IMG/VR virus record: IMGVR_UViG_3300035698_002175
Span: 1 to 25,501 of that record
DNA length: 25,501 nt
DNA from: a virus
Strand: one strand, 5' to 3'
Shown here: positions 4,223 to 5,303 of the stretch, piece after piece
How positions within the stretch are numbered: position 1 is the first letter of the stretch
Layout: each line of letters starts with the position of its first letter
The notes under the pieces: model-generated
What the model was told of the DNA's origin: nothing
Database searches by the model: none
Seen by the model: only the letters and a program-made list of their open reading frames with translations
Position numbers and translations under genes: made by a program

Positions 4223-5122
4223 CTATCGGTCTTCCCTCTGTTCAAAGTTAAGGTCTAGTGTCAACTCGTCTGGTTGTTCTACATGACAGATACTAGCGTA
4301 CCCACATAGACTATTATAGTTCCAGCATTGTGAGTACTCTCTATACCAATCATTGGTCTTCTTCTTATGTCGTATGTCACGTACCTTGGCCTCAACATAC
4401 TCTACAAACTGTTTGATTTCTACTGGATTGCGGTAGGAAAAGTACCTTACATAGTACTTGCGGTCACGTTCAGGGAGCTTAGCATCGTCCTCATACATAG
4501 ATATGATACGCATACCATAAGTGTCAGCTGTGTCAGCTACACGTTTACGTATGAGTGGGCGCTTGATACCTTCGAACATAATACCAGCTATGTCGTGACC
4601 CAACTTGTTCATAGCGTAGACATAACCAGTACCCTGTTCACTCAACTTCATACGTCCGTAGAACTGTGACACTGCCATACCTGTAGTCTTAAGCTCACGT
4701 ACCCACCATGTGCCGTCTCGTTGTTGAACCAAACCATCTACTATGCCTCTGAATCGTACGTTACGGAGATTGCCTATAGTTATATTGAAAGGTTTCTCTG
4801 ACTCAGCTGACAAAAATTCTTCTCTATCTTTCCAAGGATAGTGCGCCCACATACCTACTGCTGTGTACTTATCTACTATCAAGTCTTCATGCACGTCGAG
4901 ACCTTCAGCTTTCTTTATCTCTATATTATATATATTATTAATATAGTTAATTACATCAGAGCTGGTTGATCCCTTGTACCACATATCAAAACCTTCATGT
5001 AAAACTTTACCAAGGTATAATGGTAGTGGCCTTCGACGTGGTACGATATTTTCTTCATATTTAAAACGATATTTACGTGGACATTGAAGAGTCCGTAGGC
5101 GAGAGACGCTGACGTTTAGCAT
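4223..5122 (-). CDS. Cas4/RecB-like PD-(D/E)XK nuclease with four-cysteine Fe-S site
   Basis: A 299-residue member of the PD-(D/E)XK exonuclease group (PDDEXK_1/Cas4-AddB type). His42 (GKVLHEGFDMW), Asp129 (RGIVDG), Glu143-x-Lys145 (RELKTTG) and Gln163 (EQGTGYVYA) match the catalytic motifs. Cys14 together with Cys266, Cys273 and Cys279 forms the one-plus-three pattern that holds a 4Fe-4S cluster in Cas4 and AddB. Such phage enzymes resect DNA ends for recombination, here presumably with the Sak4-like ATPase and DUF669-like protein downstream. No cas genes or CRISPR repeats are present, so this is not a CRISPR acquisition gene by context. It is the first gene after the promoter at 5270-5298; its AGGAGG lies just 3 nt from the ATG and directly abuts the U-tract of the leader hairpin. 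Confidence 0.9.
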   Translation of the reverse strand: MLNVSVSRLRTLQCPRKYRFKYEENIVPRRRPLPLYLGKVLHEGFDMWYKGSTSSDVINYINNIYNIEIKKAEGLDVHEDLIVDKYTAVGMWAHYPWKDREEFLSAESEKPFNITIGNLRNVRFRGIVDGLVQQRDGTWWVRELKTTGMAVSQFYGRMKLSEQGTGYVYAMNKLGHDIAGIMFEGIKRPLIRKRVADTADTYGMRIISMYEDDAKLPERDRKYYVRYFSYRNPVEIKQFVEYVEAKVRDIRHKKKTNDWYREYSQCWNYNSLCGYASICHVEQPDELTLDLNFEQREDR

Positions 5123-5125
5123 GAA

Positions 5126-5131
5126 CCTCCT
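5126..5131 (-). promoter_or_regulatory. Ribosome-binding site of the nuclease gene, abutting the leader U-tract
   Basis: AGGAGG on the minus strand, only 3 nt before the ATG at 5122 and immediately after the seven T residues that follow the leader hairpin. Termination at the U-tract would release an RNA without this site, and hairpin formation could also affect ribosome access. The arrangement suits control of the first gene of the operon. Confidence 0.7.
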
Positions 5132-5202
5132 AAAAAAATAGGCATAGAGACGGACTCCGATTGGAGGGTGCCAGGGTATTCGCCTGCCATCGTCTATGCC
5201 TA
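5132..5202 (-). terminator. Branched hairpin with U7 tract between promoter and first gene
   Basis: On the minus strand the arms TAGGCATAGACG (5202-5191) and CG-TC-TCTATGCCTA (5152-5139) pair over 12 bp with a 2-nt bulge and are followed at once by seven T residues (5138-5132), the layout of an intrinsic terminator. The roughly 38-nt inside can fold two more small hairpins: CAGG/CCTG with a 7-nt loop, and CTCC/GGAG with a 4-nt loop. This gives a three-way junction rather than a simple loop. It could stop transcripts from the late region, but it also lies downstream of the promoter at 5270-5298. It would therefore attenuate the early operon unless antitermination or refolding occurs. Confidence 0.72.
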
Positions 5203-5269
5203 AAAATTGTATGTGATTTATTCTGGTTTATTTTGCACCTATACCTGTTTCCATTGTTCGATGGTAGCA

Positions 5270-5298
5270 AGTATACTCTATCAGATATTAGGTGTCAA
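5270..5298 (-). promoter_or_regulatory. Near-consensus sigma70 promoter for the DNA-metabolism operon
   Basis: On the minus strand the -35 box TTGACA (5298-5293) and the -10 box TATACT (5275-5270) are separated by exactly 17 bp. That is a perfect -35 and a 5/6 -10. Transcription would start near 5263, leaving a leader of about 140 nt before the nuclease ATG. The -35 box begins 5 nt after the stop codon of the upstream gene. It should be read by the host housekeeping RNA polymerase. Confidence 0.85.
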
Positions 5299-5303
5299 GT
5301 TTT

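Follow-up and report, generated by a model that had tools for sequence, protein, structure and literature searches.

The window, by which we mean the whole 25.5-kb viral record analyzed here, carries every gene called on its minus strand and is probably a fragment of a larger genome. The stretch from about 25.4 kb to about 5.3 kb holds structural genes; after it comes a recombination operon in the order PD-(D/E)XK exonuclease (5122-4223), dGTP-diphosphohydrolase-like N-domain, HNH endonuclease, Sak4 and SSB. The leader element sits between these two modules, in a gap of about 180 nt (181 nt). Its parts and three of the operon genes are as follows.

5270-5298, minus strand: sigma70-type promoter TTGACA-17-TATACT, 11 of 12 consensus matches, with an A6 run directly upstream
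5240-5275, no strand assigned: imperfect dyad TATACTTGCTACCAT-CGAACA-ATGGAAACAGGTATA, 15-nt arms with 12 of 15 pairs, covering the -10 box and the start site
5203-5262, minus strand: 5' leader, unstructured and A-rich, about 60 nt, in which no antiterminator pairing was found
5139-5202, minus strand: branched hairpin, in which 10 bp, a bulged C and 5 bp lead up to a three-way junction that bears two small hairpins
5132-5138, minus strand: U7 tract, with the expected 3' end of the RNA
5126-5131, minus strand: Shine-Dalgarno (SD) sequence AGGAGG, 3 nt from the nuclease ATG (5122)
4223-5122, minus strand: PD-(D/E)XK exonuclease, heading the recombination operon
1281-2048, minus strand: Sak4-like ssDNA annealing protein, member of the recombination operon
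793-1281, minus strand: ssDNA-binding protein (SSB), member of the recombination operon

Neither the nuclease nor the 2580-aa protein matched any annotated phage, and searches for related loci with the nuclease, Sak4 alone, the 2580-aa protein or the 20-mer stem found none. The 134-aa protein matched two loci, which were set aside, as only a short motif is shared. The motif NDPDNLNANW of this protein (window 5304-5708) is also found in the gene upstream of a portal-like gene in L003 and, in L002, at the end of a tail-associated protein. A tRNA search found none.

The near-consensus sigma70 promoter that the preliminary description placed at 5298-5270 was borne out. Two sites with 11 of 12 matches occur on the minus strand and only this one has a 17-nt spacer; by chance, 0.005 such sites would be expected in the 181-nt gap. 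The transcription start is predicted near 5262. The score of the dyad at 5240-5275 was reached by 5 of 300 shuffles, which is suggestive only, and the dyad is a possible operator for a repressor. It hints that the main on/off control of the operon may be a repressor acting on DNA.

The outer 10-bp stem of the hairpin has the arms UAGGCAUAGA and UCUAUGCCUA and is followed by the bulged C, 5 bp and hairpins of 5 and 4 bp, which together make the three-way junction. Thus, the two small hairpins and the junction described previously were found again, and the supposed 12-bp stem is really one of 10 + 5 bp with a bulge; the seven U residues (5138-5132) and the SD sequence directly behind them (5131-5126) are as had been described. 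The spacing of 3 nt between AGGAGG and the nuclease ATG (window 5120-5131) is below the usual one. The hairpin (5202-5139) has a predicted energy of -28.7 kcal/mol (z = -2.9), equaled by 1 of 200 shuffles, and is the strongest in the window among the hairpins that precede a T-tract. The minus strand has no T7 run other than U7. When it was scanned for exact stems of 8 or more pairs immediately 5' of 6 or more T's, a single case came up, and 1 of 200 dinucleotide shuffles contained one (0.005 per shuffle). In an RNA ending at 5139, the P1 pairing probability is 0.97-1.0 for 9 of the 10 pairs and 0.70 for the outermost. All four elements, the promoter, the hairpin, the U-tract and the start codon, are therefore confirmed, and chance would hardly produce them.

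As had been suggested, the hairpin appears to be best read as an intrinsic terminator. A stable stem lies directly 5' of a U-rich tract (10 + 5 bp, U7), a combination reached by only 1 of 200 shuffles. A terminator discriminant of the d'Aubenton-Carafa type is +11.2, and -14.2 in an alternative register in which the stem ends at GCC. When folding of the growing transcript was predicted, the 5' arm stayed mostly free until the 3' arm was made, and the terminator then formed at once (-17.9 to -28.9 kcal/mol). Besides these features, the reading draws on the promoter far above chance in the gap, the absence of any antiterminator from our analyses and the recurrence of the layout, several times and with other stem sequences, in an unrelated phage. 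Against it stand the branched apical part of about 44 nt, which is atypical of terminators, the A-U foot of the stem, the value of -14.2 in the other register and the lack of the element in the relative described below. Furthermore, an efficient stop behind the gene's own promoter would be costly.

An alternative possibility is that the hairpin protects or processes the 5' end of the mRNA, in the manner of RNase III sites, and does not terminate. A 15-bp bulged stem right before the SD sequence of a phage early mRNA would suit such a role, for which U7, which follows the stem directly and has no equal on the strand, would be superfluous. A good RNase III site would also have a longer helix, and we regard this explanation as very unlikely.

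A profile scan with Sak4 found one real relative, L029, in which a giant protein, the nuclease (38% identity) and Sak4 (48% identity) follow each other as in the window; BLASTP detected no similarity between the two giant proteins. Within its 97-nt gap, L029 has TTGACAC in a comparable position, followed after 17 nt by a weak TAAGTT, then a leader of about 30 nt and an SD sequence, and no terminator hairpin with a U-tract was found there. Conservation of the stem in relatives, on which the preliminary description had let its proposal depend, is thus absent from L029, which is one distant relative only. By this sequence comparison, the nuclease/Sak4 operon does not always carry the terminator, although one distant relative is too few to settle its conservation.

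At 8596-8657, L029 has an inverted repeat, the left arm of which lies in the promoter spacer; it would bury the nuclease SD sequence mainly in read-through RNA, which resembles the early/late logic known from T4. For the window, a T4-like explanation would be that the leader keeps the nuclease from being expressed from late transcripts, by termination and burial of the SD sequence, and that RNA begun at the promoter is better translated. The predicted accessibility of the SD sequence, for which there is no shuffle control, is about 0.15-0.23 in the window for RNA starting at 5320 or further upstream and 0.31-0.50 for starts at 5280-5300; the corresponding values for L029, equally without shuffle control, are about 0.17-0.22 for read-through and 0.31-0.65 for promoter starts. 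However, the pairing of the SD sequence in the window depends on an A-run that meets the U-tract over a long loop, the promoter is upstream of the hairpin, so that both RNAs would be affected, and the -10 box and start site of L029 are weakly defined. We consider this explanation quite unlikely.

If the hairpin is a terminator, its opening could be regulated. The preliminary description supposed that the operon is off by default and opened by a ligand, by refolding or by antitermination; the present results lend this no support. An attenuator or riboswitch would have an antiterminator structure exclusive of the terminator. No antiterminator appeared when transcripts growing from 5262 were folded prefix by prefix, the structure before the 3' arm was weak, and the 5' leader did not compete with the terminator stem. 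Pairing between the leader and the hairpin core, examined as a duplex, was at the level of shuffled leaders (z = -0.5, 131 of 500), and no conserved aptamer or leader was seen in the single syntenic relative L029 or in Rfam. In agreement with the earlier statement that no known riboswitch or ribozyme is matched, the Rfam search gave no family of these or any other kind. Complementary segments of the type seen in C4 / P4 CI antisense RNAs, and a match to the C4 model, were likewise not found. As for a translated leader peptide, which ribosome-mediated attenuation needs, the two short frames noted before do exist, one of 24 codons (5190-5116) and one of 8 codons, at 5254-5228 and so about 4 nt from the position first given. 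Both lack a good SD sequence, as judged by eye and as had been noted. They are short enough to be expected by chance, and the proposed role as leader peptides was not upheld. A built-in switch, be it an antiterminator, an aptamer or a leader peptide, is thus not supported.

One possible explanation of the layout of promoter, short leader, terminator and genes is nevertheless a default block that is released in time by a Q- or N-like antiterminator, an RNA-binding protein or a small RNA, as in lambda pR'-tR'. The alternative pairings built into the look-alike leaders described below make such phage switches plausible, and since the record is probably a fragment, the gene for a trans-acting factor could lie outside it. 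However, the window has neither an antiterminator fold nor leader-core pairing, no antiterminator protein was found among the genes scanned in this probably incomplete record, and L029 does not conserve the element. Regulated release therefore seems rather unlikely. The element might also be a stand-alone gene for a small RNA of about 131 nt that has a function in its own right, with expression of the nuclease by leak only. It does form a complete unit of promoter, RNA and terminator; the lack of conservation in L029 and of an Rfam match, together with the SD sequence of the nuclease adjoining U7, makes this highly improbable.

We thus favor, at a probability of roughly 0.55, the reading of the hairpin and U7 as a partial intrinsic terminator, a constitutive brake and insulator in the leader of the recombination operon without a dedicated switch. 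Termination, its partial efficiency and the missing switch are what we infer from a sequence, a predicted fold and a rarity that can themselves be read directly from the window. The Rho-independent terminator would lie between the operon's own sigma70 promoter and its first start codon, and would halt a fraction of the transcripts begun at this promoter as well as a fraction of those arriving from the upstream structural genes; it could thus hold back the early promoter and insulate against late read-through. The terminated RNA would be about 131 nt long (5262 to 5132), and the remaining transcripts would pass the terminator, with the nuclease translated from the SD sequence right behind the U-tract. 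If termination does occur, this phage adjusts its recombination genes through a terminator in the leader and not by promoter strength alone.

A pattern with the stem letters of the window led to L009, contig IMGVR_UViG_3300044471_000009, where a three-way junction, U8, an SD sequence and ATG are laid out as in the window. The full record of 90 kb (G001) belongs to a phage unrelated to that of the window. It has six leaders in which promoter, hairpin, U-tract, SD sequence and gene follow each other.

7112 of G001 (7112 of L112, G001:C1): leader with a poor terminator score
8821 (8821 of L112): leader with a clear promoter, 11/12
9284 (9284 of L112): leader
12155 (12155 of L112): leader before a Bro-N antirepressor, promoter doubtful
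52187, minus strand (12187 of L114): leader with a clear promoter, 11/12
23406 (3406 of L113): sixth leader, before the major head protein, with a simple hairpin and a doubtful promoter

Five of the six have a 5' leader that runs antisense to the core of their hairpin (z from -2.4 to -3.9, 0 to 10 of 500 shuffles), figures that are somewhat flattering because the pairing was spotted by eye ahead of testing; for 12155, the leader start was chosen by hand because the promoter is unclear. The leaders at 8821 and 12155 have different outer stems but one 22-nt core, GAGTGTGGNNNGCAAGCCTTGG, identical outside three variable bases. No Rfam family was matched by the G001 leaders, and the C4 model matched neither them nor the window. 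From their sequences, they look like an undescribed multi-copy attenuator family. They share with the window a promoter, a leader (about 30-45 nt in G001), a branched hairpin, a U-tract, an SD sequence and ATG, and one copy has GGCATAGA/TCTATGCC in common with the window hairpin. However, the core sequences are unlike and the window leader is not antisense to its core; thus the window element is an analogue of the G001 family and not a demonstrated member. In about 1 Mb of loci compared, only the window and L009 were found to have an 11/12 promoter together with a hairpin of this kind and an SD sequence; the locus set is not random, as L009 was found through the stem pattern. That both represent one functional class of phage attenuator, in which a strong promoter, a terminator with a three-way junction and a start codon are combined and a phage-encoded factor or RNA opens the terminator, a class undescribed in Rfam and reused within one genome, is distinctly unlikely. 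The G001 family is more interesting than the window element, as a phage in which each of several promoters feeds a hairpin terminator with a core antisense to the leader before it would offer a multi-copy attenuation system open to testing.

The stem patterns GGCATAG(A)...TCTATGCC had few viral matches, and coding sequence, unrelated leaders and ordinary terminators accounted for most of the 15 genome matches, which were rejected. The phage-like contig end L015 has a three-way-junction hairpin with U6 and GGAGG at 104-191 (minus strand). Kinship was dismissed because, apart from GGCATAGA...TGGCAGGC and a similar fold, the alignment with the window hairpin shows little likeness. In the replication module of other viral contigs (L011 at 5820-5945, L012 and L013), TATAAT is closely followed by GGGCATAG...CTATGCCC, U6, an SD sequence and ATG, and the transcript would begin almost at the hairpin. 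The stem letters that the window has in common with L009, L011-L013 and L015 are treated as compatible with chance. A likeness to the phi29 pRNA, suggested by the three-way junction, was dropped given the lack of an Rfam match and the different genome type. A limited literature search found no paper on a leader with the layout promoter, hairpin, U-tract and SD sequence in phages.

In the late leader pR'-tR' of lambda, a strong constitutive promoter is followed by a short leader, an intrinsic terminator and the operon; a 194-nt '6S' RNA is made and Q acts by antitermination. The window resembles it in the strong promoter, short leader, putative intrinsic terminator, operon and short terminated RNA. 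It differs in that a recombination operon is controlled, the stem is branched, the terminator touches the SD sequence and no Q-like gene was found among the window genes scanned. The P4 CI and P1 C4 immunity RNAs are phage leader RNAs in which complementary segments control termination or an antirepressor. The G001 leaders come close to this logic, whereas in the window a complementary leader segment is not present beyond chance. Among terminator-type attenuators, the rplJL leader of Bacillus subtilis has a terminator hairpin in its 5' UTR (PMC4538822), and the window is like such attenuators and riboswitches to that extent, with a hairpin of this kind ahead of a gene; unlike them, it has no alternative antiterminator, Rfam aptamer match or leader peptide with a ribosome site. 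The window element thus looks like a real feature of an ordinary kind, a simple brake rather than a new type of RNA regulator.
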